Source: a virus
DNA: 33,748 nt
Virus record (IMG/VR): IMGVR_UViG_3300017732_000028
Coordinates: 1-33,748 of that record
Direction: 5' to 3' (one strand)
Positions 12,826 through 25,083 of the stretch are shown here, piece after piece. Numbering within the stretch: position 1 is the first letter of the stretch; every line of letters begins with the position of its first letter. The position numbers were made by a program, and so were the translations under genes. The notes beneath the pieces are model-generated. The model made no database searches and was not told the origin of the DNA. It saw only the letters and a list, made by a program, of their open reading frames with translations.

Positions 12826-13245
12826 ATGGCAATGGTAGAAAGAAAAGAAACTAAATATGTAGTAGTACATTGTGCTGATACTCCAGCTGATATGGATGTG
12901 GGAGCTGCTGATATTAGAAGATGGCATGTAGATGAAAGAGGCTGGGATGATCTGGGTTACCATTGGATAGTGAGAAGATCTGGGCAGTTGGAACCTGGCC
13001 GAGATCAAAGACTACAGGGTAGTCATGCCCTTGCAGTTAATAGTAAAAGTATAGGTGTTTGCCTAGTGGGAAGAGGCGATAACTTTACAGAAGATCAGAT
13101 GTACACACTTCATAATGTAATACAAACAATAAGAGATATGCACCCAGAAATAGAAGTCATTGGACATTCAGATGTGGAACCAAAGAAACCACATTGTCCA
13201 GGATTTAATGTAAAGGAATGGTATCAAGATGAGTTCATCGGCTAA
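12826..13245 (+). CDS. Endolysin: N-acetylmuramoyl-L-alanine amidase (T7 lysozyme-like)
   Basis: The protein has 139 residues, close to T7 gp3.5 in length. Amidase_2 signatures are visible: VVVHCADT with His15, the GYHWIVRRSG segment (Tyr45, His46), SIGVCLVG, then GHSD (His114) and KPHCPGFNV (Cys124). His15, His114 and Cys124 correspond to the zinc ligands of the T7 enzyme. It cleaves the lactyl-peptide bond of peptidoglycan once the holin opens the membrane. There is no signal peptide, so release depends on the holin. No T7 RNA polymerase gene is present, so the second T7 lysozyme role (polymerase inhibition) is unlikely here. Confidence 0.9.
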   Translation: MAMVERKETKYVVVHCADTPADMDVGAADIRRWHVDERGWDDLGYHWIVRRSGQLEPGRDQRLQGSHALAVNSKSIGVCLVGRGDNFTEDQMYTLHNVIQTIRDMHPEIEVIGHSDVEPKKPHCPGFNVKEWYQDEFIG

Positions 13246-13948
13246 AGGTTATTCAAGAGTATTAACCATATCAGATCTTCATTGCCCCTGGGAACATCCA
13301 GATGCATTTGATTTTTTAAAAGCATTAAAGAAAAAAATTAAACCGGACTTTGTACTTAACCTAGGTGATGAGGCAGATGCCCATGCCCTATCAATGCATG
13401 ATAGTGATCCAGATCTTATGTCAGCCGGTGATGAGCTGATAGCTGCTAAAAAAAGATTACATAAATTAGAAAAAATTTTTCCAAAAATGACACTACTACA
13501 TTCTAATCATTCATCATTAATATATAGAAGAGCATTGAAACATGGAATGCCAAGAGCTTACTTAAAAAATTATAATCAGTTTTTAGAAGTAGGCCCAGGA
13601 TGGGAATGGGTAGATGATATTACAATACCATTATCAGATGGATCTAAAGCATTTGCTACACATGGTATGTCAGCTGATGGATTAAAACTTGCTATGCAAT
13701 ATGGCCTTCATACAATCCAGGGCCATTTCCACAGTAAGATGAACATACAATACTTCTCAAATCCTTCTTCATTAATATGGTCAATGCAATGTGGCTGCCT
13801 CACAAAACAATCAAGTCTTGCCTTTGAGTATGCTCGTAATTTTAAAATGAGATTTGTTATTGGAACAGGAGCTGTCATTGATGGACAACCAAAACTTTAC
13901 ATTATGAGATTAGATAAAGATAACCGGTGGGATGGTACTATAGTCTAA
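13229..13948 (+). CDS. Calcineurin-like metallophosphoesterase
   Basis: The protein has 239 residues and overlaps the amidase end by 17 bases. Metallophosphatase motifs appear in order: DLH (Asp16, His18), GDEAD (Asp47, Asp50), SNH (Asn93, His94, where the family usually has GNH), THG (His145) and GHFH (His166, His168). The two-metal site appears complete. The family hydrolyses phosphomono- or diesters; a phage role in nucleotide or DNA processing is plausible, but the substrate is unknown. It is placed after the lysis genes and before a small basic protein with a 1-base overlap. Confidence 0.8.
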   Translation: MSSSAKGYSRVLTISDLHCPWEHPDAFDFLKALKKKIKPDFVLNLGDEADAHALSMHDSDPDLMSAGDELIAAKKRLHKLEKIFPKMTLLHSNHSSLIYRRALKHGMPRAYLKNYNQFLEVGPGWEWVDDITIPLSDGSKAFATHGMSADGLKLAMQYGLHTIQGHFHSKMNIQYFSNPSSLIWSMQCGCLTKQSSLAFEYARNFKMRFVIGTGAVIDGQPKLYIMRLDKDNRWDGTIV

Positions 13949-14082
13949 TGGCTAAACAAAAGTTCACTCATTTTGTACCTCGTGATAAACCTAAAAAAAG
14001 ACCAGGAGTACACACAAAAAGTTTAAACAAACATAAAAAATTACAACAAAAAAACACTAGATATAAAGGTGGTGGAAGATGA
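13948..14082 (+). CDS. Small very basic protein, 44 aa
   Basis: It starts at a TAATG overlap with the phosphoesterase and ends in an overlap with the next ATG (14079). The product begins MAKQKFTHFVPRDKPKKRPG and is rich in Lys/Arg, with no hydrophobic core. I recall near-identical short proteins in other marine podoviruses. A nucleic-acid-binding role would suit the composition but is not shown. Overlaps on both sides and conserved style support real coding despite the length. Confidence 0.6.
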   Translation: MAKQKFTHFVPRDKPKKRPGVHTKSLNKHKKLQQKNTRYKGGGR

Positions 14083-14303
14083 CAGCTAAAGCAGATTGGA
14101 AAGAAGTAGTACAAGAATTAAAAGACCAGGTAAGAATACTCAAGGATGAGAAGGCAGAGCTGCAATCAAGTGTTAAAGAAAAAGAAAGTGCATTGAAAAG
14201 ATCAACACAAAAATTAGAGAATGTTACAGAAGATTTAGATGCAGCTAATCAAGAGATAGAACAATTAAAGAAACCAAAAGAAGATGAAATCAGTAACGAT
14301 TGA
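14079..14303 (+). CDS. Coiled-coil protein, 74 aa
   Basis: GGTGGAAG lies directly before the ATG. Nearly the whole chain (residues 8-66) is one charged heptad-repeat helix, for example QELKDQVRILKDEKAELQ, and no other domain is visible. The function is unknown. The next gene starts 20 bases before this one ends. A second, unrelated-looking coiled-coil protein is encoded nearby on the other strand (14894-15235). Confidence 0.5.
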   Translation: MTAKADWKEVVQELKDQVRILKDEKAELQSSVKEKESALKRSTQKLENVTEDLDAANQEIEQLKKPKEDEISND

Positions 14304-14595
14304 TAACACAAAATATTTTTTTAAGAAATTAACCTGGCTTGATATTGTAGGTGATAGTACGATTGCTGGTGAAAATGATTATCATAATATGAAGTGTGCA
14401 GAGATAATTACAGAGGCATATGTCTATGACATCTTTGAGGAGGATGGTAGGGAGTTTGTAAGAACCTTTGCATCTTACCAAACAAAAAACAATGAGTTCG
14501 GATTTGGGGATAGAAACTGTTATCCTATGGAAGTCTTTGATAAACGCAGCCAGAAAGCCATCAGAGAGGCCTCCAGATTAACATTAAAGGGGTAG
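14284..14595 (+). CDS. Conserved phage-type hypothetical protein, 103 aa
   Basis: The ATG is within GAAGATG, overlapping the coiled-coil gene. The protein has the pattern KLTWLDIVGDS, a central Cys, then VRTFASYQTK and GFGDRNCYPMEVF. I associate this layout with short hypothetical proteins of marine podoviruses, but I know no function. It is probably cytosolic, with no signal or transmembrane segment. It is the last gene of the rightward transcription block; the stop at 14595 faces the leftward block across about 50 bases. Confidence 0.5.
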   Translation: MKSVTIDNTKYFFKKLTWLDIVGDSTIAGENDYHNMKCAEIITEAYVYDIFEEDGREFVRTFASYQTKNNEFGFGDRNCYPMEVFDKRSQKAIREASRLTLKG

Positions 14596-14645
14596 CTAGT
14601 ATGATTGGGTGTATAGAAACTAAACCTTCTGTATAGGCTTTATAT
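14596..14645. other. Convergence point of the two transcription blocks
   Basis: Fifty bases separate the stops of the rightward and leftward operons. The gap contains two copies of TGTATAG (14610-14616 and 14630-14636) and an imperfect inverted repeat around 14612-14635. A bidirectional terminator would be expected here, but I see no strong GC stem with a T-run. Confidence 0.4.
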
Positions 14646-14897
14646 TCAATTTAAAGGTAAAGTCTTTGGTATGTTCTCTACTGAACCTAATAAACCAGCA
14701 CAATAGCTACCGAACACTACATAACCATGGTAAAAAAATCTATCTAGCTCTACTTTATCCTTGTTTAGAATGGTTCTATGTTCAAAAAGATTATGCTCAT
14801 GTGGATCCTGGCATTGCTCTTCTGTAACCTGGACAGGATGCATCATATATAATTCAGATCCTACACCCAGGTATAAAATCAAAACAAATAGTTTCAC
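14646..14897 (-). CDS. Small exported Cys-pair protein
   Basis: The protein has 83 residues and a GTG start that overlaps the stop of the upstream gene (GTGA), so translation is probably coupled. A hydrophobic N-terminus (KLFVLILYLGVG) resembles a signal peptide. Cys29 and Cys66 are the only cysteines and could pair in the periplasm. The plan matches the proteins at 11416 and 12618 in the lysis region. It is the last gene of the leftward block. Function unknown. Confidence 0.5.
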   Translation of the reverse strand: MKLFVLILYLGVGSELYMMHPVQVTEEQCQDPHEHNLFEHRTILNKDKVELDRFFYHGYVVFGSYCAGLLGSVENIPKTLPLN

Positions 14898-15235
14898 GAT
14901 TTACAAAGATGTACGAGCTGCTTAATTATCTCTTGAATTCTATCCTTTAGTTTTGTTATAATCTTGTCCTTTATTTTTACATGTTCATACAAGGCTACAA
15001 CCTCTTGTTCTTTTTTAGATAGTTTAGTTTGTAACTCACCATTCAAATCTTTGTGGCCCTTATTAATTGTAAGTAGATTATCTCTTTCTTCTGACAATCT
15101 ATCTATTTCTTTTTCTAATCCAGAAAAATTTAGATCTTTATGTTTTTTTAATCCTTCATTCATTTTTTTTACCTCATTCTCAAAAGAAATATCTGTTCCA
15201 TGATCTTTCTCTTTCTTATAAGTTTTAGTTGCCAT
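14894..15235 (-). CDS. Coiled-coil protein, 113 aa
   Basis: I take the ATG at 15235; a GTG lies directly upstream at 15238. Residues about 35-105 are heptad-like (LEKEIDRLSEERDNL, then KIKDKIITKLKDRIQEIIKQ), with a basic N-terminus. No domain is recognised. It overlaps both the preceding gene (ending 15225) and the following GTG start, so it belongs to the leftward recombination operon. Confidence 0.5.
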   Translation of the reverse strand: MATKTYKKEKDHGTDISFENEVKKMNEGLKKHKDLNFSGLEKEIDRLSEERDNLLTINKGHKDLNGELQTKLSKKEQEVVALYEHVKIKDKIITKLKDRIQEIIKQLVHLCKS

Positions 15236-15521
15236 CACTATTCTCTGTTGGATTTTTAATAAACAAATGTTCTATCTTATCTCTATGAGTTTCAAACCAC
15301 AGCTCTTCAAATGGTCTAATCTCTACATCACTTGGGAACATAGGATTGTGTTCTAGCTTTTGTAACTCTGGACTACTAGCTGTATAAAACTTTTGATAAG
15401 GTTCTATACCATCTTCAGTACCAGGAATTGTTATACAAATAACATCTTCTGTGCCATCAAAAGCCTCTATCAATCCCTTAATAAATTCTTTTCTAAATCT
15501 GCTTTTGTATAACTTCATCAT
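15225..15521 (-). CDS. Hypothetical protein, 98 aa
   Basis: Two consecutive ATG codons open the frame, overlapping the end of the LexA-like gene. A basic N-terminus (KLYKSRFRKEFIKGLIEAF) is followed by an acidic, probably globular region. There are no transmembrane segments, signal peptide or recognised motif. It is part of the leftward operon between the LexA-like regulator and the coiled-coil protein. Confidence 0.45.
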   Translation of the reverse strand: MMKLYKSRFRKEFIKGLIEAFDGTEDVICITIPGTEDGIEPYQKFYTASSPELQKLEHNPMFPSDVEIRPFEELWFETHRDKIEHLFIKNPTENSDGN

Positions 15522-15730
15522 AATATTTCTATACCTCTTGGTTTAGCTGGATGTACTTTAATATGATTATCTCTTTCTAATAACCTTAACATGCGATGCA
15601 CATTTGAATGTACACATCCCATGTGTTTAGCTATCTCTCTTACTGTAGGAGGTACTCTATCTTTTTTGTAATAGACTTTAATGTAATCTAAAACTCTTAA
15701 TTGTTTTTTAGTTAGCATTACTGTCGCCAT
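15518..15730 (-). CDS. LexA-type winged-helix DNA-binding protein without peptidase domain
   Basis: The protein has 70 residues, with a strong ribosome site (AAGGAGGT, 5 bases before the ATG) inside the end of the ERF gene. The whole chain matches the LexA N-terminal DNA-binding domain: LTKKQLRVLDYI, PPTVREIAKHMG, a recognition helix around SNVHRMLRLLER, and PRGIEIL at the wing. LexA's C-terminal autoproteolytic serine/lysine domain is absent, so it cannot respond to RecA in the usual way. It may repress phage promoters, or compete with host LexA for SOS boxes. Confidence 0.75.
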   Translation of the reverse strand: MATVMLTKKQLRVLDYIKVYYKKDRVPPTVREIAKHMGCVHSNVHRMLRLLERDNHIKVHPAKPRGIEIL

Positions 15731-16406
15731 TGTTAACCTCCTTTTTCTTTTTAATTATTTCATTAAGTTTTGATTTAATGTATGAGCAACGAATAGAGAT
15801 CTGATCACCAGCTGCTGGTAATTGCTCTTTACAATTATCCCAATTATTTTTTTGAGAATTTTCTTGATCTTCTATTTTATTTAGTCTTTCTTCTGGTGAT
15901 AGATTTGCATCTTTAGAAATAGTATTCATTTTTTCTACTTGTTCTTTAGAATACTTAATCCATTTATTATCTTCTGCTGTTGGTTTAGAAGATACAGCTG
16001 CATTGCCATCATCATCTTCACTAGGTAATCCATAGATAGCTTGTAAAGAATATCTTTTGGCATAAGTAATAGCAGATCCCAGGGCCTGGCTATCATCATA
16101 CTTATTATTTTTTGGAATGATTAAGTATCTAGATTTAATTACAGCATCACTATCAGTATGCATTAAACTTGTTGTTACATACATAGTAGTGTCAATTACA
16201 CCTTCTATTATTTGTTTTTGATAATCAATAGTTTGTGTAAATGCTAATCCAAACTTGGCCCCTTGATTAGCAGCTGCAATTACATCTTCTAATCCAGCAT
16301 AACTTGATTTGAAATAAGGATTTTTTTTATCCTTAACTGCTACATTAGCCTCTTGTTGAAACTTACTTAAAGCCTCAACTATACTTTTAGTGTTGGGTTT
16401 CGTCAT
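15708..16406 (-). CDS. ERF-family single-strand annealing recombinase
   Basis: I place the start at the ATG at 16406 because AGGAG lies 9 bases upstream and the family usually begins just before SIVEALSKFQ; ATG codons at 16412 and 16436 are alternatives. Counting from 16406, ERF hallmarks are YFKSSYAGLEDVI (31-43), then SQALGSAITYAKRYSLQAIY (106-125), followed by GLPSEDDDGN. Essential recombination function proteins anneal complementary single strands, usually with a partner exonuclease; here that is probably the YqaJ-like gene just upstream. The C-terminal 90 residues are charged and poorly conserved. Likely roles are end repair, concatemer formation or genome circularisation. Confidence 0.85.
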   Translation of the reverse strand: MTKPNTKSIVEALSKFQQEANVAVKDKKNPYFKSSYAGLEDVIAAANQGAKFGLAFTQTIDYQKQIIEGVIDTTMYVTTSLMHTDSDAVIKSRYLIIPKNNKYDDSQALGSAITYAKRYSLQAIYGLPSEDDDGNAAVSSKPTAEDNKWIKYSKEQVEKMNTISKDANLSPEERLNKIEDQENSQKNNWDNCKEQLPAAGDQISIRCSYIKSKLNEIIKKKKEVNNGDSNAN

Positions 16407-16656
16407 CGTCATTTTCTCCTGGTTCTTCTGGTTCATTTATTGCTCCTTTGTCCACATGAATTGTGAATATTTGATTTTGCATTTTAAGACCTTCAATGGC
16501 AGCCATAGCCACATACTCAATAAGCTCCTCAACAAAAGGAACCTCAAGTTCAAGACCGGTCTTTTCATAGATCTTGTTTCTAACTTTCCTGGCACTTTCT
16601 TTTCTTGCCAATAAATAGGCATTGATCTGAAAGTATTTTCTTGGATCATCATCCAT
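16387..16656 (-). CDS. Hypothetical protein between exonuclease and ERF, 89 aa
   Basis: The protein overlaps the exonuclease end by 8 bases and runs over the start of the ERF gene. It is a mixed-charge chain with a helical middle (YEKTGLELEVPFVEELIEYV) and a very acidic tail. No domain is recognised. A position between exonuclease and annealing protein in phages is often taken by an accessory recombination factor, but nothing in the sequence shows that here. Confidence 0.45.
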   Translation of the reverse strand: MDDDPRKYFQINAYLLARKESARKVRNKIYEKTGLELEVPFVEELIEYVAMAAIEGLKMQNQIFTIHVDKGAINEPEEPGENDDDETQH

Positions 16657-17629
16657 TCATATCCTTTATGGTAAACCTTCTAGTTATTGTAGGAGCTGCA
16701 CCTTCAACTTTAATTGTTTTAGTTTTAGCTCTTTCATAAGTAGAATGATTAATCATATATCCTTGGCATTCAGCTTTCTCATGCTCACCCAGGATCTCTT
16801 TCATTCTTATTGATACTGTGTCCTGGATTTTTTTAGATGCTTTGATTGCTTTATCAGCAGATAGATAATCATCTATTAATTGTGGTAGTTCATTATTTTT
16901 ATTAAAGTTAATTACATCTTTAGATCCATTACCTTTGAAGATCCTTGATGCCTCTTTTGTATTAGCAGCTGCGTAGTGTAGCTTATCACCTTGCATGATA
17001 CCATCAACTCTATGCCAAAATTCTACAGCAGCATTAATTAACTTATCTTGTATTTCTTTATTTGGTTTATAAACAAACCATTGTAACTCCCATCCCTTAA
17101 CTAACCTAACCAAGATGGCATAGTTATAACCGGTAGTTAAGAGTTGGGCCTGTACCTGGAGTTTATAAATTTCAGATACATCATCAGAGGCAGCCCCAGA
17201 ATAATTTTTAATCTCAATCACACCCTTACCATTCAAGCTGTGGGAGCTTTTAAAATGGTCAATCAAGTTTAAAGTTTTATCAAGATGCATTTCTGCATCC
17301 AGGGAGCTGCCTATTTTTCCACCATCAACTTCATAGAAGTATGCTTTATCCGGAACACTTATATTTAGAGGGAGCTTTCCTTGTTCAGCACAAATCAATT
17401 TCAGTTCATTGTGAAACATTTGTATTATTGCCGGTTCTAAAATAGTACCAGCTTTAACTTTAGGTAAGTTAGCTATGTCATTTGTAGCCTCCTGTCCTTG
17501 TAAGGCATTGATTGCCTTTTCCAACTCATCATTCGGTGAGCTGAAACCTATATAACCTTGATCGGTTAAAACTAAATTAGGGATAGAGCTAGATCCTATC
17601 TCTCTTCTGGCATACGAAGTTAATTTCAT
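16649..17629 (-). CDS. YqaJ / lambda-exonuclease-like PD-(D/E)XK nuclease
   Basis: The frame is open to 17665, but GGGAGG lies 6 bases before the ATG at 17629, which I take as the start (326 residues). Nuclease-fold residues appear in order: Glu65 (GTILEP), Asp111 (GSSLDAE), Glu139-Ile-Lys141 (VIEIKNY) and a Gln-rich helix KLQVQAQL (157-164). That is the YqaJ-type arrangement. The family resects double-stranded DNA ends 5' to 3', giving 3' tails for an annealing protein; the ERF protein follows in the same operon. The last 80 residues are basic and may bind DNA. Confidence 0.8.
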   Translation of the reverse strand: MKLTSYARREIGSSSIPNLVLTDQGYIGFSSPNDELEKAINALQGQEATNDIANLPKVKAGTILEPAIIQMFHNELKLICAEQGKLPLNISVPDKAYFYEVDGGKIGSSLDAEMHLDKTLNLIDHFKSSHSLNGKGVIEIKNYSGAASDDVSEIYKLQVQAQLLTTGYNYAILVRLVKGWELQWFVYKPNKEIQDKLINAAVEFWHRVDGIMQGDKLHYAAANTKEASRIFKGNGSKDVINFNKNNELPQLIDDYLSADKAIKASKKIQDTVSIRMKEILGEHEKAECQGYMINHSTYERAKTKTIKVEGAAPTITRRFTIKDMNG

Positions 17630-17787
17630 TATATGCCTCCCATCATTCCATAGTATGCAGCACACTTATCTGACAACGCACACATAACTATAGTAAATAA
17701 ATAAATTGCAACTAACATTAAAAGAAATGTTATGCACTCGGCAGCAAACTTGATTTGCTCTTTATACTTTTTAATCAACTGTATCAT
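17629..17787 (-). CDS. Small membrane protein, 52 aa
   Basis: A strong ribosome site (AAGGAG, 5 bases before the ATG at 17787) opens a frame that ends in a one-base TAATG overlap with the exonuclease start. The product has a basic N-terminus (MIQLIKKYKEQIKF), one transmembrane segment (about 15-38) and a short Cys-containing tail. Function is unknown. The ribosome site and the overlap make it convincing despite the length. It lies between the recombinase and the exonuclease. Confidence 0.65.
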   Translation of the reverse strand: MIQLIKKYKEQIKFAAECITFLLMLVAIYLFTIVMCALSDKCAAYYGMMGGI

Positions 17788-17806
17788 CCTTACTCCTTTT
17801 TAATTG

Positions 17807-17844
17807 GTGTCTAAATGACCTGGTATAGTTTATCTTTTAGACAC
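17807..17844. repeat. Perfect 9-bp inverted repeat next to the serine recombinase
   Basis: GTGTCTAAA (17807-17815) and TTTAGACAC (17836-17844) are perfect reverse complements separated by 20 bases. They lie in the only real gap of the leftward operon, just downstream of the recombinase stop and upstream of the small membrane gene. The repeat could be an RNA hairpin, an operator or a recombinase binding site. There is no T-run, which argues against a simple terminator. Confidence 0.7.
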
Positions 17845-17856
17845 ATATTGTTTCTA

Positions 17857-18522
17857 TTATAGATGAACATTAACAGAACATCTATTTACATAATTTCTTA
17901 CAGTAGAAGGATACCATTCACCATTTCTAACTGTAGGAATTCCTCTTGCATTTAGAGCTTTTGCAATTTCAGATAATGTAGTTACACCATACTTTTTAAG
18001 ATCTACTATAAGGTTATTAACAGATCTAGCTTTCTCATCTGCTAACAATTTCTTTTTAGCATTACCTTTTATTGCAGCTTGTTTTAAGTTTTTAGTATTA
18101 CCTAAAACAACTCCTCTTTTTTTTGCCTGGGCCAAAGCAGATTTAGTATTCTTTCTTAAAGTATCTAAATACTGTTCAGCTACAGCAGCCAAAACTTGTA
18201 TCGTAAATTTATTTACTGATGGCATATCACAACAAACAAACTCAATCTTACTTTCCATAAGTGATGCTGTGAATGCCAGGTTACGAGATAGTCTATCAAG
18301 TCTAGCAATAACTAAAGTTGCTTTTTCTTTTTTACATAACTCCAGGGCCTGTGTTAATTGTGGTCTATCATTTTTAGATCCACTTTCTTCTTCCTGGAAT
18401 ACTTGCAGCAGCTCATCATTCTTAACAAACTCATTAATAGTTTGTAATTGATCAGCAGATCCATAACCTTCCTTACCTTGCTTATCTGTACTAACTCTAG
18501 TGTAACCTACATATTTTTTCAT
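17857..18522 (-). CDS. Small serine recombinase (resolvase/invertase family)
   Basis: The protein has 221 residues. The N-terminal catalytic domain has YTRVST with nucleophile Ser11 and Arg9, RLDRLSR (74-80), a long helix around ILDKE-type positions (FTIQVLAAVAEQYLDTL, 106-122) and GVVLGN (137-142). The C-terminus (ARGIPTVRNGEWYPSTVRNY) resembles the start of the recombinase domain of larger serine recombinases but is short. The family cuts and rejoins DNA at paired sites through a serine-DNA link. Possible roles are resolving genome multimers, inversion or integration. No invertible gene segment is evident. A perfect inverted repeat lies just downstream. Confidence 0.85.
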   Translation of the reverse strand: MKKYVGYTRVSTDKQGKEGYGSADQLQTINEFVKNDELLQVFQEEESGSKNDRPQLTQALELCKKEKATLVIARLDRLSRNLAFTASLMESKIEFVCCDMPSVNKFTIQVLAAVAEQYLDTLRKNTKSALAQAKKRGVVLGNTKNLKQAAIKGNAKKKLLADEKARSVNNLIVDLKKYGVTTLSEIAKALNARGIPTVRNGEWYPSTVRNYVNRCSVNVHL

Positions 18523-18734
18523 TACGCAGCCCCCTTATCCATATAGTATCCTTCGGATCCTAATTTTAATTCAGCAAATAAAAATGTTTTAGTATAGCCA
18601 AACTTTTTTACAACTTGTTTTCTGTTTGCAATTCTAAAAACTTTTTCCCATGCCATAATTACAGCTTGTGCTTTATGTGGAGCTTTAACTTTGCAAATAA
18701 CTTTTTCTGCTTTTTTTATTAACCATGTTTTCAT
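18522..18734 (-). CDS. Small hypothetical basic protein, first leftward gene
   Basis: The ATG at 18734 has GGGAGG 8 bases upstream, better than the open frame's earlier ATG at 18776. It encodes 70 residues: basic, with MKTWLIKKAEKVICKVKAPH then MAWEKVFRIANRKQVVKKFG, and no transmembrane segment or known domain. It is the promoter-proximal gene of the leftward block and overlaps the recombinase start by one base. A regulatory or DNA-binding role is possible from position only. Confidence 0.5.
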   Translation of the reverse strand: MKTWLIKKAEKVICKVKAPHKAQAVIMAWEKVFRIANRKQVVKKFGYTKTFLFAELKLGSEGYYMDKGAA

Positions 18735-18782
18735 TTGTGTAGCCTCCCTAGCTTTTGTTGTTCTTATATTGTTCATATACTA

Positions 18783-18812
18783 AATATATATTTACGATAT
18801 ATAAATAGTCAA
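18783..18812 (-). promoter_or_regulatory. Candidate leftward promoter (sigma70-like)
   Basis: Read on the minus strand, TTGACT (18812-18807) and TATATT (18788-18783) are separated by 18 bases, each one mismatch from consensus. Transcription would start near 18776 and read into the gene starting at 18734. This is the best promoter pair I found in the window. Confidence 0.6.
18789..18807. promoter_or_regulatory. Candidate operator in the divergent control region
   Basis: TATTTA (18789-18794) and TAAATA (18802-18807) form a perfect inverted repeat with a 7-base spacer. It falls between the -35 and -10 of the leftward promoter, where a bound protein would block it. The divergent gene at 18842 encodes a ribbon-helix-helix protein, the obvious candidate. 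AT-rich DNA makes such repeats less rare, so this is tentative. Confidence 0.45.
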
Positions 18813-18841
18813 GAGTTAAATTAATAAAAAGGAAAAAAAAT

Positions 18842-19027
18842 ATGCAACCTAAATTAACCCCACTTTTCCTTAATATTTCAGCAGATTTGAAGAGTAAGCT
18901 AAAGATCCAGGCTAAAAAAGAGAGGATCCCTATGGTTACTTTGATCAGCGAGGTATTGGAATTTGGACTACCGAAGAGAAAACAAATCAAAAAACAAATC
19001 ATGGGAGGTATAAGTAATGGCCGATAA
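18842..19027 (+). CDS. Ribbon-helix-helix (Arc/CopG-like) regulator
   Basis: The protein has 61 residues, with AAGGA upstream. The pattern TPLFLNISADLKSKLKIQAK followed by ERIPMVTLISEVLEFGL fits a ribbon-helix-helix fold: a short beta strand, helix 1, a turn, and helix 2 with hydrophobic spacing. Such dimers bind operators through the beta ribbon. It is the first gene of the rightward block and faces the leftward operon across a control region with an inverted repeat, so it is probably the early switch protein. It overlaps the next gene by 11 bases. Confidence 0.65.
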   Translation: MQPKLTPLFLNISADLKSKLKIQAKKERIPMVTLISEVLEFGLPKRKQIKKQIMGGISNGR

Positions 19028-19397
19028 AATAAATCCGGATCACTACAAAGATAACAAAATAGAAACTTGCGATGCTACATTCTCACAATTATCAGAGGCA
19101 GAGATACTTGGGGCCTGTAAGTTTAATATAGCTAAATACACATTCAGAGCTGGTAAGAAAGTACAAACTCTTGAAGGTACTAGGGATGACATTGGTAAGG
19201 CCCATTGGTACTGCGAGAGATTACTCAAAGAGCTTACTGACATGATTAATAAAAGAAAAAAAGCAAAACGAAAAGATCCAACAGATATTGATCTTGAAGA
19301 TCTAACAGAAGAAGATCTACAGGAGCTGCTAAACCCTGGAGCTAAAGTTGTTCCAATAAAAAAGAAAGAGGATAAGAATGACAAAAATTCCAAATAA
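19017..19397 (+). CDS. DUF3310 protein, T7 gp1.7 nucleotide-kinase-like
   Basis: The protein has 126 residues. DUF3310 features are the start INPDHYKDNKIETCDA, then CKFNIAKYTFRAGKK, and GKAHWYCERLLKEL. T7 gp1.7, which carries this domain, is a nucleoside monophosphate kinase acting on dGMP and dTMP, so a role in supplying DNA precursors is likely. The last 45 residues are charged, acidic then basic. It lies in the early rightward operon immediately before replication genes. Confidence 0.75.
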   Translation: MADKINPDHYKDNKIETCDATFSQLSEAEILGACKFNIAKYTFRAGKKVQTLEGTRDDIGKAHWYCERLLKELTDMINKRKKAKRKDPTDIDLEDLTEEDLQELLNPGAKVVPIKKKEDKNDKNSK

Positions 19398-19920
19398 TGT
19401 AATGCGACCACCGAAAGGTTTTGAGTATGTACAACAAGGATCTGTACCTAATGTTCAAGCTAAACCCATTCAAGATGATACGAAGATAAGGATCAACTAT
19501 CTTGAAAGTAAATTAGATAAGATCATGGATGAGCTGCGAGTATTGAAGAGAAGAGATAAGTATAAACCTCAACCAAACGAGAGAGCTAAACGAGTATGGA
19601 TTTCAGATATACTTGAGGCTGTTTGTGATTACTATGAAATGACACCAGCTGACATACAATCTGCAAGTAGGCTTTCAGAGATTGTAAGAGTTAGATCTGT
19701 ATTTATAAACTTATGCAATTCACTTACTCATGGATCTTATTCTGCAATAGGTAGAATGTGTGGTAACAGAGATCATACAACAATCATTCATCATGTAAGA
19801 TTAAAAAGAGATAAGACTAATTGCTGGAATATTAAGAAGGAATTAGGATTAGAGCTGTGGTCAGATTTTGGCAAACTTGAGGCCGAATTAAAGTCTAAAG
19901 CAGAACCAGATAATGAATGA
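19378..19920 (+). CDS. DnaA domain IV-like origin-binding protein
   Basis: The protein has 180 residues and overlaps DUF3310 by 20 bases. Residues about 76-145 match the DnaA C-terminal DNA-binding domain: ILEAVCDYYEMTPADIQSAS, a basic VRVRSVFINL helix, SYSAIGRMCG and the signature GNRDHTTIIHHV (129-140) that contacts DnaA boxes. The AAA+ ATPase part of DnaA is absent; the N-terminal 75 residues hold only a short coiled coil. It probably binds a phage or host origin and recruits or diverts host replication proteins. It overlaps the next gene at ATGA. Confidence 0.8.
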   Translation: MTKIPNNVMRPPKGFEYVQQGSVPNVQAKPIQDDTKIRINYLESKLDKIMDELRVLKRRDKYKPQPNERAKRVWISDILEAVCDYYEMTPADIQSASRLSEIVRVRSVFINLCNSLTHGSYSAIGRMCGNRDHTTIIHHVRLKRDKTNCWNIKKELGLELWSDFGKLEAELKSKAEPDNE

Positions 19921-20771
19921 CAAAAAAGAAAGCAGATTATGGTAAGGGCAAAACACCTGGAGCATTCTGTGTGCTGCCCCAAAGAGCTGTCATAGATCCT
20001 AGGTTCAAGACTTATCCTAGAACATTTATGATCCTGGCTTGTCTAGGTAACTACACATCAAGAACCGGTGTGTGTTGGCCTAATCAGATTACTATTGCCA
20101 GAAACTTACACATCACCCAATCAACTGTATCCAAGCACATACAGAAACTAATTGAATGGGGTTACATAAGATATGCAAAGAAACATCCTGGATTAAAAGG
20201 TAACAAATACTTTATGGTGTTTGATCCTAAAGTTAAGGAAGAGGATGCGAAGGCTATTGCTACAGTAAATGATAGATCCTTTGAAGAGAAGATAACTATT
20301 CCGAAAGGCCCCCTTATGAATAAAAACAGTAATAGTAAATATTCCCCTAGAGTGAATAATAAGAAAGATACTAACAAGGTAGATATTCCCTCTACTGAAT
20401 ATGTAGATATTCCTTCAGACCGACTACATAACACTCCATCTAACAATATATCTATTCTTAATAGCAGTAGAGTAATTATGAATAGTTATGTTAAATTCTG
20501 TAGAGAAATATTCGGACAACATAAAGTTTACGATTTTAAGCAAGAAGAATTAGTGAAGAGCTGGTTAAATCAAGGATTGCATCCGGATACAGCCATTGCC
20601 AAGATCAGAACCACAATACAATGGAGGAAGGATAATAGGTATGATTGTCCTGGTACTATCTATTTCTTTAAGCCTATATTCTTTAAGGAAGATAAGGGTA
20701 ATGATACCAGGCTAGATATACAGAAGATGATTAAGAAACTAGCCAATAAAAAAAGGATGCCATGGAAATAG
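19917..20771 (+). CDS. Helix-turn-helix replication initiation-type protein
   Basis: The protein has 284 residues. Residues about 10-100 fit the winged-helix domain of replication initiators: FCVLPQRAVIDPRF, MILACLGNYTSRTGVCWPNQ, then ARNLHITQSTVSKHIQKLIE. The middle is Ser/Asn-rich and low complexity. The C-terminal part (about 180-284) has a helical region with WLNQGLHPDTAIAKIRTTIQ resembling DnaD-like helicase-loader tails. It follows the DnaA-like gene and precedes the repeat-rich gap, so the two probably initiate replication together. Origin binding versus helicase loading cannot be separated from sequence. Confidence 0.65.
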   Translation: MTKKKADYGKGKTPGAFCVLPQRAVIDPRFKTYPRTFMILACLGNYTSRTGVCWPNQITIARNLHITQSTVSKHIQKLIEWGYIRYAKKHPGLKGNKYFMVFDPKVKEEDAKAIATVNDRSFEEKITIPKGPLMNKNSNSKYSPRVNNKKDTNKVDIPSTEYVDIPSDRLHNTPSNNISILNSSRVIMNSYVKFCREIFGQHKVYDFKQEELVKSWLNQGLHPDTAIAKIRTTIQWRKDNRYDCPGTIYFFKPIFFKEDKGNDTRLDIQKMIKKLANKKRMPWK

Positions 20772-20964
20772 AATTATTTACAAAGCCTAAAGGTTCGTAT
20801 ATGATTTGTACTGTAAGAAGATTGTAAATATACAGGGCAGAAACCTGGGCCTTTTTCTTTTAGAAAAAGTGTACCCCCTTCTCCCCCAGGGTGCGTATAT
20901 CTATAGGGGTATATCTCACAATTTTTTTACAAATAAAACATGAAACAAACAAGTGAGGAAATAT
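20772..20964. other. Repeat- and hairpin-rich intergenic region (origin/terminator candidate)
   Basis: This is the longest gap between annotated genes. It contains a short CAGG/CCTG stem (20833-20847) followed by a T-rich run, a perfect 7-bp hairpin CTTTTTC/GAAAAAG (20851-20869), an outer CCTGGG/CCCAGG pair (20844-20849, 20885-20890), a C-rich tract, and two direct copies of GTATATCT (20895-20902, 20909-20916). It follows the replication genes. A terminator plus promoter, or a replication origin, are both reasonable. Confidence 0.5.
20833..20869 (+). terminator. Terminator-like hairpins after the replication genes
   Basis: A short GC stem (CAGG, 7-base loop, CCTG) is followed by GGCC and a TTTTTCTTTT run, itself the left arm of a perfect CTTTTTC/GAAAAAG hairpin. 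Position after 20771 suits termination or attenuation of the early transcript before the packaging and virion genes. The first stem is only 4 bp, so confidence is modest. Confidence 0.4.
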
Positions 20965-21270
20965 ATGACGAAACCAATATCCAGCAACAGAGGATTTAAG
21001 TTTTTTAAAGCTGCATCTATTCCAGAAGGAACAGAAGTAATTATAGAAACTTGGCCTGGTGCTGATTACAATAAAGACACAGGAAAGTATGTTCCGGTTC
21101 CAGGTAGATTAGATACAAAGATCTATAGGAAAGATGAAACCAAAGAATATAAAAAAGGTGAACCTATTTTATTCTTTAACACATTTGAGAATAAAGATGA
21201 GGAACCCCCTGTCAATCTAGCAGCTGAACAAGCTGATAAGGAAGAAATGGATGACGCAATCCCCTACTAA
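20965..21270 (+). CDS. Hypothetical protein upstream of terminase, 101 aa
   Basis: I choose ATG 20965 because GAGG lies 6 bases upstream; a GTG at 20953 would add four residues. A positively charged N-terminus (MTKPISSNRGFKFFKAASIP) is followed by a beta-rich middle (EVIIETWPGADYN, KYVPVPGRLDTKIYRK) and an acidic tail ending DDAIPY. The acidic tail recalls single-stranded DNA-binding proteins, but no OB-fold signature is certain. It overlaps the small terminase by 20 bases. Confidence 0.5.
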   Translation: MTKPISSNRGFKFFKAASIPEGTEVIIETWPGADYNKDTGKYVPVPGRLDTKIYRKDETKEYKKGEPILFFNTFENKDEEPPVNLAAEQADKEEMDDAIPY

Positions 21271-21754
21271 AAAGAGGATTATAAAACCCCCTCTGGATCG
21301 TTTCGGTGGTGTCCGAGTGGTTCAGAGGAGGATTAGAAAATCCGAAGTCATTGAGCATAACAAAGATAATGTTGCTCAAGAATTGATTGATATAGCTACT
21401 GCGAATATTGATGAGATAATGGATTGGGATGATGAAGGTAATGTTACTATTAGAGATCCTAAAAATATTTCAAAGTCAGCAATCAAAGCTATAAAAAAAA
21501 TTAAAGTAACACCGACAAAGATGGGGCCACAGTTAGAAGTAGAGCTGCATGATAAAGTTGGAGTGTTAAGAGTATTAGCTAAAGCATCTGGATTATTAGA
21601 ACCAGAGCAAGATGTAGATAGACCGAGTGTTGTGCAAATAAATATGAGTGGGCCGGAAGAACCTAAAATAGTGGAGGCAGAGAATGTTGAGGTTAATGAA
21701 CCACAAGGAAGTGGAACAGATCCAAGTAGCGATGCTCAAGAACAAGTTGAGTGA
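21251..21754 (+). CDS. Terminase small subunit
   Basis: The protein has 167 residues and lies just upstream of the large terminase. The N-terminus is basic; the core (about 43-115) is helical and ends ELHDKVGVLRVLAKASGLLE, the closing motif seen in Terminase_2-type small subunits. The C-terminal 50 residues are acidic and disordered. Small terminases recognise the packaging site and load DNA onto the large subunit. The call rests on position, size and the conserved helix. Confidence 0.7.
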   Translation: MTQSPTKKRIIKPPLDRFGGVRVVQRRIRKSEVIEHNKDNVAQELIDIATANIDEIMDWDDEGNVTIRDPKNISKSAIKAIKKIKVTPTKMGPQLEVELHDKVGVLRVLAKASGLLEPEQDVDRPSVVQINMSGPEEPKIVEAENVEVNEPQGSGTDPSSDAQEQVE

Positions 21755-21875
21755 TCGTGAGTGTGCAAAAAAGTGTGGCAAGAATATAAAAGATTATAGA
21801 GATATAGTCTTTAAAAGAAAAAAAGAAGATGACAGCAGAATTAAATCAATAGTAAAGGCAATCACAAATGAGTAA
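21732..21875 (+). CDS. Small basic protein between terminase genes, 47 aa
   Basis: The ATG at 21732 lies inside the small terminase end and the stop overlaps the large terminase start; an earlier in-frame ATG at 21684 would increase the overlap. The product (MLKNKLSDRECAKKCGKNIK then DYRDIVFKRKKEDD) is basic with two cysteines and a possible helix-turn-helix. It fills the gap between two essential genes with overlaps on both sides, which supports coding. Function unknown. Confidence 0.5.
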   Translation: MLKNKLSDRECAKKCGKNIKDYRDIVFKRKKEDDSRIKSIVKAITNE

Positions 21876-23388
21876 TGCAATAGCAAATCTAAATCTAGAC
21901 TTTAGTACATCCCCTACTGTTTGGAAATTTTTAAATGATAAAAGTTTTGTAAGAGGATTAATGGGGCCGGTGGGATCTGGCAAGTCTTATGCTTGTGCAG
22001 CAGAGATTATGATCAGAGCTGTTAATCAAGTACAAAGTCCTCGTGATGGGATCAAGTATTCTAGGTTTGTTGTAGTTCGTAATTCTTATCCGGAGTTGAG
22101 GACAACTACTATTAAAACATGGCAAGAGTTATTTCCAGAGAACATTTGGGGTGCATTTAGATGGTCACCTCCATTAACACATCATATAAAATTACCAGCT
22201 AGAGATAATGCTCCAGGTATAGATTGTGAAGTTATCTTCCTGGCCCTTGATCAACCTAAAGATGTTAGAAAGTTATTATCAATGGAATTGACAGGAGCAT
22301 GGGTAAACGAGGCTAGAGAGCTGCCTAAAGCTGTTATAGATGGATTAACACACAGAGTTGGAAGGTATCCTACATTATCAGATGGTGGAGCAAAACCATG
22401 GCGAGGAATTATTATGGATACAAACCCAATGGATGATGATCATTGGTGGTATAATTTAGCAGAGAAAGAAAAGATGAAAGGTAAATATGCCTGGAAGTTT
22501 TATAAGCAGCCAGGAGCTGTTGAAGAGGCTACAGAAAATGAGTTACCAGAAAATCCAGAGGCTAATGGTTTTGTTTATGCAGCAAACAAATGGTGGGGAA
22601 CAAATCCTACTACAGAAAATAGAAAAAATTTAACAGCTGGTTATTACGAACAAACATTACTTGGTAAGAATGCTGATTGGATTAGATGCTATGCCCAGGG
22701 TAGATATACTTATGTTCAAGAAGGTAAGCCTGTCATGGGTGAGTATGATGATACTTTAATGACAGAAGAATATTTAGAACCAGATATTCAATATCCTATC
22801 CAGGTAGGTGTTGACTTTGGTTTAACTCCAGCTGCTATCTTTGGTCAGAAATTACCTAATGGACAATGGCGAATATTTCATGAGCTTGTAACATTTGATA
22901 TGGGCCTGGAAAGATTTGGTTATATGTTAAAAGGTGAATTAGAAACAAGATTTCCAAAGTATGATGTATTAGTTTGGGGTGATCCAGCTGGTATGAAAAG
23001 GGATGAGATCTTTGAAGTTACTGCATTTGATCATTTAAGAACCATTGGATTAGTTGCTAGACCAACTGCTACAAATGATTTTAGAGTTCGTAGAGAGGCT
23101 GGTGCAGCTCCAATGAATAGGTTAATCCAAGGTAAGCCTGGATTGTTAGTTGATAAAAGATGTAAGCGATTACGAAAAGCATTGAATGGTGGTTATCATT
23201 TTAAACGAGTTCAAATATCTGGTGGTGAAAGATACAAAGATCAACCTAATAAGAATGAACATTCGCATGTCGGTGATGCTTTTATGTATTTACTATTAGG
23301 TGGTGGTGAACATAAACGATTAACAAGAGGTGGTAATAAAAACTTTTCAGCATCAGTAGCTAGTGCAGATTTTGATATATTTGCATGA
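21868..23388 (+). CDS. Terminase large subunit (ATPase and nuclease)
   Basis: The protein has 506 residues. The ATPase has Walker A GPVGSGKS (33-40) and a Walker B-like strand ending with an acidic residue in GAWVNEARE (143-151), then IIMDTNP (181-187). The nuclease domain has VGVDFG (Asp316), VWGDPAG (Asp372) and HVGDAF (Asp470), the expected RNase H-like metal triad. It powers DNA translocation into the prohead and cuts the concatemer. It follows the small subunit as in most tailed phages. The length is normal and no motif is missing. Confidence 0.95.
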   Translation: MSNAIANLNLDFSTSPTVWKFLNDKSFVRGLMGPVGSGKSYACAAEIMIRAVNQVQSPRDGIKYSRFVVVRNSYPELRTTTIKTWQELFPENIWGAFRWSPPLTHHIKLPARDNAPGIDCEVIFLALDQPKDVRKLLSMELTGAWVNEARELPKAVIDGLTHRVGRYPTLSDGGAKPWRGIIMDTNPMDDDHWWYNLAEKEKMKGKYAWKFYKQPGAVEEATENELPENPEANGFVYAANKWWGTNPTTENRKNLTAGYYEQTLLGKNADWIRCYAQGRYTYVQEGKPVMGEYDDTLMTEEYLEPDIQYPIQVGVDFGLTPAAIFGQKLPNGQWRIFHELVTFDMGLERFGYMLKGELETRFPKYDVLVWGDPAGMKRDEIFEVTAFDHLRTIGLVARPTATNDFRVRREAGAAPMNRLIQGKPGLLVDKRCKRLRKALNGGYHFKRVQISGGERYKDQPNKNEHSHVGDAFMYLLLGGGEHKRLTRGGNKNFSASVASADFDIFA

Positions 23389-23579
23389 TCAAAAAATATT
23401 TAATTAAGGTTTGGCAGATCGGTGAAATGAGTTTGCTAGAAGAAAAAATTATAGAAGTAGAAGATGATAAATGGAAAGGCATTGTATTACATCAACCAGG
23501 AACCAGAGCAACAGCAGAAGAAATAAATGAACCTACAGAAACTAGAACAGATATTCAAGATCCAGGAAACAAAGATTAG
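23385..23579 (+). CDS. Hypothetical protein after large terminase, 64 aa
   Basis: ATGA overlap with the terminase stop. It begins MIKKYLIKVWQIGEMSLLEE, followed by an acidic, probably unstructured C-terminus (ATAEEINEPTETRTDIQDPG). No domain is recognised. It overlaps the next frame by about 50 bases if that gene starts at 23527. The coupling supports coding; the function is unknown. Confidence 0.4.
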   Translation: MIKKYLIKVWQIGEMSLLEEKIIEVEDDKWKGIVLHQPGTRATAEEINEPTETRTDIQDPGNKD

Positions 23580-24015
23580 TGTAGTTCCTTTTAGATCTTA
23601 CTTATTAAAGATTATGGATCTAAATGAATTTGATAGATTAAATTTATCTCAAACTAATTACTTTGATTATATAGATGCTGCTAGTGAGCAAGGCTATGGC
23701 TATACAGTTATTGAGAATGGTAAGCCTATGTTATGCTTTGGTGTAGTTCCTTATTGGCCTGGAGTTGCAGAATTATGGTTGATACCAGATAAAAAAAAAA
23801 TTTCAGAGCATAAAATAAAATTTCACAAAGGTGCATTAGAGTTTATGAAGTTAGCAGCTGCTGATCTAAAATTAAAAAGATTACAAGTAACTGTCAGTTC
23901 TTTAAATGTTTCTGCTCTCAAATGGATAAAAGCAATGTATTTTGTAGAAGAAGGAATTTTAAAACATTATGGTGTTGATAATTCCGACTATGTAATGTTT
24001 GCGAGGTACTTTTAA
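23527..24015 (+). CDS. GNAT-fold protein similar to T7-type gp13 (internal virion protein A)
   Basis: The GNAT-like core runs from about residue 17: VVPFRSYLLKIM, YTVIENGKPMLCFGVV, WPGVAELWLIPD, FHKGALEFMKLAA, KRLQVTVSSLNVSALKWIKA, then FVEEGILKHYG and SDYVMFARYF. The pattern resembles the T7 gp13-like GNAT family of podoviruses. Whether acetyl-CoA is bound is unclear. Homology seems to begin near residue 17, where there is no ATG; the ATG at 23527 adds 16 residues, and the next ATG (23614) would cut the first strand. It sits between terminase and portal rather than after tail tube B. Confidence 0.7.
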   Translation: MNLQKLEQIFKIQETKISVVPFRSYLLKIMDLNEFDRLNLSQTNYFDYIDAASEQGYGYTVIENGKPMLCFGVVPYWPGVAELWLIPDKKKISEHKIKFHKGALEFMKLAAADLKLKRLQVTVSSLNVSALKWIKAMYFVEEGILKHYGVDNSDYVMFARYF

Positions 24016-24019
24016 AACT

Positions 24020-24286
24020 ATGGGATCACTATTCAAAATGCCAAAATATGAACCACCTAAACAAGTGGAAACATCTAATAAACTTTTAGATGAAAGAGAG
24101 GCGAGAGCTGATGCCAATGAACAAAGAGAAAAAAGAAAGATAGCTGCAAGATCTAGATCTCGTAGAACAAACGCAAAATTATTATTTTCAGATGAAAGAA
24201 ACAATCCAGCATTAGGAGTTACAAATAGCATGACACCAACAGTAGCTAATCGTAATCCTTATGATACAGAGAAGAGGTACACATAA
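24020..24286 (+). CDS. Small Arg/Lys-rich virion-region protein, 88 aa
   Basis: I prefer ATG 24020; a TTG at 23999 would add seven residues. It begins MGSLFKMPKYEPPKQVETSN, continues with a charged helix (LLDEREARADANEQREKRKI), then RSRSRRTNAKLLFSDERN. Short proteins starting MGxLF with a proline-rich segment and Arg cluster are common near portal genes of marine podoviruses, and a minor virion or assembly role is likely. It ends in a one-base overlap with the next gene. Confidence 0.5.
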   Translation: MGSLFKMPKYEPPKQVETSNKLLDEREARADANEQREKRKIAARSRSRRTNAKLLFSDERNNPALGVTNSMTPTVANRNPYDTEKRYT

Positions 24287-24555
24287 TGGGAGGATCACCA
24301 GCAAGAGTAATTAAAAAAACTATTTCTAGAGTTACCGGTGGAGGTGGATCACCTTCAGCAACATCTCAAATTGAAGATAGAAGAACAGAAGTAAAAAAAA
24401 CAACTGAACCAGAAGGTAAAAAATTAGTTAGAAGAAAAGTAGGAGGAAGAAAAAGAAGAAATGTATCTACTCTAGCTAACTATGCTCCATCAACATCATT
24501 AGGTGAAACAGTAAGTAGAAATCCAAGAGATACTAAAAATAAATTAGGAGCTTAA
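24286..24555 (+). CDS. Basic low-complexity protein, possible T7 gp7.3-like tail assembly protein
   Basis: The protein has 89 residues and starts at a TAATG overlap. A basic N-terminus (RVIKKTISRVTGGGG) is followed by KKLVRRKVGGRKRRNVSTLA and a Ser/Thr-rich tail. The overall style, with KK repeats, a Gly-rich stretch and GRKKR then SxA near the end, and the position before the portal resemble T7 gp7.3. No alignment was possible, so the link is weak. Confidence 0.4.
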   Translation: MGGSPARVIKKTISRVTGGGGSPSATSQIEDRRTEVKKTTEPEGKKLVRRKVGGRKRRNVSTLANYAPSTSLGETVSRNPRDTKNKLGA

Positions 24556-24681
24556 ATGCCAGATAGAGAAACTCAAGAATATAATAGAAACCCTCGTTTC
24601 ATAAAATTAAAAAATAATTGTGAGTGCAATGGTGATTGTAAATGCAAGAATGATGAAAAAAAAAGAGAGGAAAATAAATAA
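24556..24681 (+). CDS. Micro-protein with CxCxxxCxC cluster, 41 aa
   Basis: The ATG directly follows the previous stop and the stop overlaps the next ATG (TAATG). A polar N-terminus (MPDRETQEYNRNPRFIKLKN) precedes Cys22, Cys24, Cys28 and Cys30 in ten residues, then a Lys/Glu tail. The spacing suggests a small metal site (zinc, iron or copper) similar in density to metallothioneins. The coding call rests on tight junctions on both sides. Confidence 0.55.
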   Translation: MPDRETQEYNRNPRFIKLKNNCECNGDCKCKNDEKKREENK

Positions 24682-24830
24682 TGGCTAAACCTGGATTATA
24701 CGCAAACATAAACGCAAGAAAGAAAAAAGGAATTAGCAGATCTAAAAAGAATTCTACTATTTCAGATAAGGCATATAAAAATATGAAAGCTGGATTTCCA
24801 AGATCTAAAAGAAATAAAGGATTAGTTTAA
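24681..24830 (+). CDS. Highly basic micro-protein, 49 aa
   Basis: Starts and ends in TAATG overlaps. It contains YANINARKKKGISRSKKNST and ends RSKRNKGLV. The ending resembles that of the next protein (RKNRKKGLVY), so the two may share ancestry. Composition suggests binding to DNA, RNA or the acidic capsid interior. No known domain. Confidence 0.5.
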   Translation: MAKPGLYANINARKKKGISRSKKNSTISDKAYKNMKAGFPRSKRNKGLV

Positions 24831-24943
24831 TGCCTAATGTAGCTGGTAAGAAATATCCTTATACAAAAGCTGGAAAGAAAGCAGCTAAACAAGCAAAGAA
24901 AAAAATGAGTAGAAAAAATAGAAAGAAAGGATTGGTTTATTAA
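24830..24943 (+). CDS. Highly basic micro-protein, 37 aa
   Basis: Starts at a TAATG overlap. The sequence begins MPNVAGKKYPYTKAGKKAAK and ends with a Lys/Arg tract and RKKGLVY. More than a third of residues are Lys or Arg. The YPYTKAGKKAAKxAKK pattern is one I recall from short marine phage proteins. A nucleic-acid-binding or packaging-related role is possible. Confidence 0.5.
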   Translation: MPNVAGKKYPYTKAGKKAAKQAKKKMSRKNRKKGLVY

Positions 24944-24945
24944 TT

Positions 24946-25083
24946 ATGTACAAAATGAAAATGAAAAAAAAGAATACTTTAAAAGGTAATCAAAAAAAAT
25001 TAGATGCTAATAAAGATGGTAAAATAAGTGGTAATGATTTTGCTTTATTAAAAAATAAAAAAAAACAAAAGGCAACAGCATGA
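24946..25083 (+). CDS. EF-hand micro-protein, 45 aa
   Basis: The frame begins three bases after the preceding stop. The protein is a basic peptide holding one textbook EF-hand/dockerin-type loop: DANKDGKISGND (20-31), with Asp20, Asn22, Asp24, Gly25, Ile27 and Asp31 in the calcium-binding positions, followed by FALLKNK. A single loop could bind calcium as a dimer or as part of a virion. Its last base overlaps the next ATG. Confidence 0.6.
   Translation: MYKMKMKKKNTLKGNQKKLDANKDGKISGNDFALLKNKKKQKATA

Follow-up and report, generated by a model that had tools for sequence, protein, structure and literature searches.

The DNA analysed here, referred to throughout as the window, is a viral record of 33,748 bases with 33% G+C. 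A short gap in this record separates two divergently oriented sets of genes. To its right lie replication genes, both terminase subunits, a head-tail connector, the major head protein and tail proteins, and the arm to its left encodes a serine recombinase, a YqaJ-like exonuclease, an Erf annealing protein and a LexA DNA-binding domain. The recombinase/exonuclease/Erf operon is oriented leftward and the repressor/replication operon rightward. We identified the following genes and features in and around the gap.

15518..15730, minus strand: 70-residue protein consisting only of a LexA DNA-binding domain (PF01726, E 1.8e-12), the proposed reader of the boxes
15708..16436, minus strand: Erf-like single-strand annealing protein (PF04404, E 5.5e-24)
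16649..17665, minus strand: YqaJ/RecE-like exonuclease (PHROG 434, E 9.4e-27; PF09588 under its cut-off)
17856..17861, minus strand: TATAAT, which follows box 2 at a distance of three bases and could be an inner -10; poorly kept in relatives
17857..18522, minus strand: small serine recombinase of 221 residues (PF00239, E 8.5e-27; PF07508, E 1.2e-5)
17865..17879, minus strand: box 2, GTTC-TGTTAAT-GTTC, within the final recombinase codons, on the strand opposite to that of box 1
18522..18776, minus strand: gene X, the first leftward gene, 84 residues when read from the ATG at box 1
18760..18774, plus strand: box 1, GTTC-TTATATT-GTTC, over the predicted leftward transcript start, 8 bases downstream of the -10
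18774..18776, minus strand: ATG overlapping box 1, predicted near-leaderless start codon, 6 bases from the -10
18783..18788, minus strand: -10 element TATATT of the leftward promoter P_L, from the sequence and its relatives
18785..18803, no strand assigned: AT-rich inverted repeat, put forward as the operator in the original prediction; present, weak against shuffles, register not kept
18807..18812, minus strand: -35 element TTGACT of P_L, with TTG at this place in all 21 distinct relative gaps
18842..19027, plus strand: first rightward gene, putative ribbon-helix-helix (Arc-like) protein of 61 residues, from weak PHROG matches

Several other features of the window were noted. The protein encoded at 19378-19920 (180 residues) carries DnaA domain IV (PF08299, E 2.6e-21) without the ATPase part; the window contains nine one-mismatch copies of the DnaA box and no exact copy, and they form no cluster near the DnaA-domain gene. 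Matches to 2-oxoglutarate/Fe(II) oxygenase families were found at 9266-9961 and 10519-11169 (PF13759, E 8.3e-10; PF13640, E 3.3e-6), and 9958-10509, between these two oxygenase-like genes, had no Pfam match. No tyrosine integrase was recognised among the scanned proteins of the window, some small open reading frames lying outside the scan, and the RNA family search returned no match. A 9-base inverted repeat (GTGTCTAAA...TTTAGACAC) is present at 17807-17844, in the stretch that separates the recombinase gene from the ribosome site following it. Its arms are largely conserved in relatives, including those with a different loop (the L040 group), and it may therefore be an RNA or DNA control element.

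Relatives were drawn from IMG/VR and from genome assemblies, and the group consists of uncultured, mostly marine bacterial viruses. By the large terminase subunit, the closest isolates are OM43 phage MEP301 (67% identical) and Pelagibacter phage Hodr (44%); positions 13000-25000 had no near nucleotide match among isolates. A search of genomes with the large terminase subunit gave four loci of mixed taxonomy, two from alphaproteobacterial MAGs (L089, L091), one from an Opitutae MAG (L090) and one from a betaproteobacterial MAG (L092), and the nearest isolate infects OM43. One distant relative (L091/L096), on a 186-kb contig of a Hyphomicrobiales MAG, is an apparent prophage in which a tyrosine integrase (304 residues, PF00589, E 1.8e-32) adjoins a YqaJ-like gene.

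The leftward promoter P_L consists of TTGACT, an 18-base spacer and TATATT, just as originally predicted, and matches the consensus at 10 of 12 positions. It is the best of five promoter-like sites in 17500-20500, where shuffles average 12.9. Although a promoter-like match as such is not rare, P_L is above chance by conservation, being retained in all 21 distinct relative gaps examined. In 20 of these a script found TTG, 16-18 bases, a TATATT-like -10 and 6-7 bases to an ATG; the exception, L048, has 9 bases from -10 to ATG, and its -35 was scored by the script as CTTGCA, one base off TTGCAA. Given the 6-7 bases between the -10 and the ATG, the P_L transcript probably begins at or beside the AUG and would be near-leaderless. 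The search gave no rightward promoter-like pair in the gap, and here too it agreed with the original prediction.

Over the predicted start of this transcript lies box 1, whose sequence is that of the alphaproteobacterial LexA/SOS box, a direct repeat GTTC-N7-GTTC that is exact in the window. Upstream of the repressor gene, GKTC-N7-GTTC was found in 48 of 59 contigs and a copy one base off in the remaining 11, against shuffle rates of 0.11% for an exact copy and 3.3% within one mismatch; the 59 are the contigs with a recognised repressor gene, and since they are related the counts are not independent. The subset found by protein similarity (51 of the 59) comprises 42 exact and nine one-mismatch copies. 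A first set comprised 47 contigs with a recognised repressor gene. In the 130 bases upstream of it, GKTC-N7-GTTC was present in 45 of them (39 of 39 protein-similarity contigs, the window and five of seven motif-found contigs) and GTTC-N7-GTAC in the remaining two, L066 and L070. A later LexA-domain search (80 of 116 relatives), from which only the 40 new contigs were examined, added 12 contigs with the repressor gene, three exact and nine one-mismatch at box 1. Duplicate loci of one contig were left out of the counts.

The half-sites of box 1 vary only between GTTC and GGTC on the left, GGTC being present in 42 of the 48 exact copies, and among GTTC, GTAC (10 contigs) and GTGC (one contig) on the right. 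The N7 centre takes the forms TTATATT, TCATAAT, TTATAAT, TTATTTT, TTGTATT, TCATATT, TCGTATT, TCTAACT and TCATAGT. Because related contigs are not independent, this constancy of the half-sites amid a changing centre should weigh more than the contig counts. An open scan for dyads in 13 representatives ranked TCTT-N5-GTTC (10 of 13, 0.05 expected) and GGTC-N7-GTTC (9 of 13, 0.03 expected) first. By eye, the codon changes that distinguish lineages within the box are amino acid replacements and none were seen to be silent, which points to constraint on the box as DNA. The number of boxes is not above chance: the window has two exact boxes where 0.64 are expected, a number reached by 13 of 100 shuffles, and ten whole relative contigs contain the exact box 19 times compared with 16 for the backwards pattern. 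Seventeen of the 19 are box 1 or box 2 by position and spelling, and two are extra copies in the L042 contig. Only place and conservation support the boxes.

The window contains one further exact copy, box 2. Of 49 contigs, 33 have an exact box 2 in the stretch from the recombinase end to the exonuclease gene (29 of 41 with motif-found contigs omitted and the window counted); one-mismatch copies in the other 16, about as many as we estimate would arise by chance, were left uncounted. The half-sites (GTTC or GGTC, then GTTC) are kept across nine spacers, TGTTAAT, TTCAAAT, TTCTAAT and TTATATT and, in further contigs, TCCTAAT, TTGTATT, TAGTATT, TTACATT and TCAAATT. An inner promoter at box 2 was considered and rejected, as the TATAAT is present in the window but is not kept in relatives.

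The left arm itself encodes a candidate reader for such a box. The 70-residue protein has an N-terminal winged-helix LexA domain (PF01726, 47.3 bits against a cut-off of 23.7). It scores 47.4 bits for full-length LexA model TIGR00498, whose cut-off is 110.95, and matches it only at 3-69 of 203; the S24 self-cleaving protease domain is absent. Its recognition helix, SNVHR, resembles the SGIHR and SNIHR of alphaproteobacterial LexA, and the SOS box described for Caulobacter is GTTC-N7-GTTC, as in box 1 (PMC9578287, PMC12700426). As a positive control, alphaproteobacterial lexA genes were searched for GAAC-N7-GAAC or its complement within 250 bases upstream, and 23 of 28 parsed genes had it, three of these 23 loci being of 27 to 34% G+C; the class was that of an assembly titled Alphaproteobacteria, and L116 and L122 fall outside the 28. 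For this control 58 genomes were drawn, 45 had lexA over the cut-off, and the best 30 loci gave the 28 that were parsed. L102, which was probably parsed from a wrong start, was counted as a miss, and L097, the lowest-G+C locus (24%), had no box within 250 bases upstream. All 23 host boxes have GTTC in both halves, unlike the GGTC of most phages, and this favours a reader of slightly different specificity, for example the phage protein.

In other phages, the absence of both a LexA domain and a box from MEP301 speaks for a pairing of the two, as does one distant relative. In the distant phage contig L090 (Opitutae MAG), a LexA domain adjoins YqaJ and is followed by an apparent terminator, and the promoter, read by eye, is TTGCAA-N17-TATATA followed by GAAC-N7-GAAA. 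Two phages speak against the pairing. Hodr has no box despite a LexA domain that scores 33.2 bits, over the cut-off, in a six-frame search and 20.5 bits, under it, in the annotated gene alone. This LexA-like domain (OQ414635, 18171-18422) is annotated as hypothetical; its reading frame continues beyond the annotated start on the upstream side, and the match is better there. In HTVC104P, which carries a LexA-like gene, the one box in 17.5 kb is at about the chance level.

Taken from the sequence and its relatives, the switch is probably read by a phage LexA-type protein rather than only by the neighbouring repressor. We propose that the gap would serve as the control point between two early phage operons, with P_L transcription starting at or next to the ATG that overlaps the GTTC-N7-GTTC operator, so that a protein bound to box 1 would lie across the start site and keep P_L off. 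The likeliest candidate for this protein is the phage 70-residue LexA DNA-binding domain. This domain is encoded in the very operon that it would control, an arrangement that favours negative feedback: the recombinase, exonuclease, annealing protein and the variable cargo genes described below would be on early and then shut off. Box 2 would be a further operator, governing the portion of the operon that carries the exonuclease, and host LexA may read the same box and so tie the operon to DNA damage. Shut-off of the early recombination operon by a phage LexA-type protein, perhaps with host LexA as well, is a reading we lean towards, and that the phage protein is the main reader of the box we hold a little more tentatively, at slightly under an even chance. 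Counting against the shut-off reading are the Hodr and HTVC104P cases, the GGTC, GTAC and GTGC half-sites of box 1 in relatives, a number of boxes no higher than chance, and the contigs in which box 2 has no exact copy or its -10 is not kept. The promoter-like sequence, both boxes with their conservation, and the LexA-domain gene with its position can be read from the DNA itself; the identity of the binding protein, repression over activation and the start site are each inferred here, and activation, as by GIL01 gp6, is possible instead of repression.

Host LexA could instead be the main reader, the operon being a phage SOS set opened by damage and the phage LexA domain competing with or replacing the host protein. 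The box in the window is the canonical alphaproteobacterial SOS box, SAR11 lexA, recA and umuDC are described as rising in HTVC027P infection (PMC12753301), and control of phage promoters by host LexA is documented (GIL01, PMC6182141; PMC9437464). We nevertheless consider this account unlikely: GGTC in 42 of 48 exact box-1 copies stands against GTTC/GTTC at the 23 lexA genes, so that the phages seem to have been selected for a specificity other than that of host LexA.

The original prediction attributed control to the ribbon-helix-helix protein, which would bind the AT-rich repeat in the P_L spacer and autoregulate the divergent pair. Its description of a compact divergent control region is borne out, as all 56 contigs showing both genes have the recombinase and the repressor in divergent orientation, and a similar small gene occupies the same divergent position, by eye, in distant L090 (starting at 2855, plus strand) and L091, where it has no significant Pfam match. 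That the first rightward gene encodes a ribbon-helix-helix protein is suggested by weak matches of the 61-residue protein to Arc-like repressor families (PHROG 3180, E 0.0014) and by matches to PHROG 582 in 11 of 13 members of the family alignment, the window included (best E 2.3e-5). The structure model is of low confidence (pLDDT 69); nothing in the PDB matched it at E 0.001, and CopG (1ea4) appeared at E 9.

The predicted operator fared less well. The perfect 6-7-6 repeat between -35 and -10 is present, as TATATA-N7-TATATA at 18785-18803, or, read outward, as a 7-5-7 repeat TATATAT-TTACG-ATATATA. The arm TATATA is its own reverse complement and the gap has 22% G+C. A 6-7-6 repeat arises in 8.6% of 2,000 dinucleotide shuffles of the gap and any repeat with 6-base arms in 43%, and the whole window contains 18 perfect 6-7-6 repeats; the four overlapping 6-base repeats in the gap are a number reached by 2.7% of shuffles. 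Across the 21 distinct relative gaps the best arms are 4 to 9 bases long, with loops of 3 to 9. Local shuffles equal the repeat at 7.6 to 51% in 18 of these gaps and do as well in at least 96% of cases in L014 and L015 (arms of 4); only L040 (1.8%) stands out. All 13 representatives contain ATAT-N7-ATAT, where shuffles of the full 130 nt predict 0.8. We put the surplus of overlapping repeats and ATAT pairs down to the AT-rich spacer, where a loose AT site is possible. From the shuffle levels and the lack of register in relatives the repeat was rejected as an operator. The evidence for it is weak and not convincing, and conservation of the repeat in relatives, proposed earlier as a check, gave no conserved operator repeat in the 21 gaps.

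The strongly conserved element is instead a LexA-type repeat outside the spacer, with a LexA domain encoded in the operon, and the evidence gives no support to the ribbon-helix-helix protein as the main controller. The consistently divergent position, the like gene in L090 and L091 and the ATAT dyads in every representative speak for autoregulation of the pair by this protein. With the changing register of the repeat and no rightward promoter in view, we find that model doubtful as an account of the switch; the protein may act in the same region.

The ATG at box 1 has consequences for the first leftward gene. Gene X comprises 84 residues from this ATG or 70 residues from an inner ATG that has, by eye, a ribosome site, and family searches with it gave no convincing match. 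In relatives the slot of gene X is a variable cargo position. Among 27 distinct leaders, which come from exact-box contigs with a recognised recombinase in the first 47 only, the frame of the box ATG continues into the first gene in 21, ends in TAATG in four and behaves otherwise in two. The first genes differ, encoding the recombinase or one of several small uncharacterised proteins, yet they share the start MNNIRP or a close form of it, and by eye inner ribosome sites are often also present in them. Of ten cargo proteins, eight had no match and two had weak matches to PHROGs of unknown function. In L046 (440-1530) two cargo genes lie in tandem, and the start sequence (ATGAACAATACAAGACC) is repeated at the head of the second, giving the impression that a newer gene was placed ahead of an older one.

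These observations raise the alternative that the conserved element is a translation signal only, a 5'-terminal AUG followed by constant first codons (MNNIRP) that would serve the leaderless initiation of the first gene. The ATG lies 6-7 bases from the -10, its frame enters the first gene in 21 of 27 leaders with TAATG in four more, and E. coli mRNAs are described in which 5'-terminal AUGs function beside ribosome sites (PMC4965119). The box substitutions, however, are not silent. The corresponding ATG at box 2 points in the direction opposite to the operon, and the L026 group lacks it, yet the half-sites are retained; L066 and L070 have no ATG at box 1 yet retain GTTC-N7-GTAC. We therefore rejected a pure leader peptide as the sole cause, since box 2 lacks it and the ATG is lost in L066 and L070, and regard the translation-only reading as improbable.

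A bolder version of our proposal combines the two signals: operator, 5'-terminal AUG and first codons would form one start module to which unrelated cargo genes are joined in frame, and the protease-less LexA domain would read it; this domain, which has a host-like recognition helix and is uncleavable and so could sit on host SOS boxes, could in addition hold down the host SOS response during infection. We offer this as a speculation more likely wrong than right by a wide margin. That the serine recombinase acts on the boxes, as sites on either side of an exchangeable segment with recombinase and cargo, is highly improbable, and we rejected it: the boxes do face each other around the recombinase and variable genes, and in L046 a further direct copy precedes the second cargo gene, but all 73 contigs showing both recombinase and exonuclease have them on the same strand, so that no inverted isomer of the segment was seen, the half-sites are direct rather than inverted, and the two centres in the window differ (TTATATT and TGTTAAT), where sites of such recombinases are expected to have matching centres.

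Regulation by a phage LexA-type protein, the reading we prefer, has its nearest precedent in the Bacillus phage GIL01, for which LexA boxes in phage promoters and a truncated LexA homologue, gp6, corresponding to the DNA-binding domain, are described (PMC6182141); host LexA on phage promoters and a truncated phage LexA are thus already known. Judged by its sequence, the window has the same combination of a truncated LexA homologue and a LexA box at a phage promoter. The systems differ in several respects. GIL01 infects Bacillus thuringiensis, and the B. subtilis box is CGAAC-N4-GTTCG rather than the direct GTTC-N7-GTTC found here; the GIL01 account has gp6 activating a late promoter through its own palindromic site (PMC6182141), whereas here the LexA-domain gene sits in an operon preceded by the box. 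The components of the GIL01 lytic switch are host LexA, gp7 and gp6. Compared with the Caulobacter SOS regulon as described, half-sites, spacing and repeat direction are identical, but here the box lies on a phage early operon, mostly has GGTC in one half, and is accompanied by a LexA without the protease domain. The start codon predicted at the 5' end recalls the leaderless lambda cI mRNA and E. coli 5'-uAUG mRNAs as described in PMC4965119, with the difference that here the AUG and first codons join unrelated genes and overlap a putative operator. MEP301, the nearest isolate at 67% by the large terminase subunit, shares the arm annotated as recombinase, YqaJ and ERF; it differs in having no LexA domain, no box and, by tblastn, no relative of the ribbon-helix-helix protein.

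Titles and abstract openings returned by full-text searches contained no report of this arrangement. Within the literature searched, three aspects are new: a direct-repeat box on the early recombination operon of these phages, the joining of this box to a predicted 5'-terminal start codon, and the swapping of first genes at this start. Little has been learned so far about how these uncultured phages regulate their early genes. If our reading is true, an SOS-type operator together with a non-cleavable LexA domain would provide a testable rule for the timing of recombination genes, and would give a hint of alphaproteobacterial hosts. The shared MNNIRP start would, in turn, mark a slot of variable early genes, among which there may be counter-defence genes.
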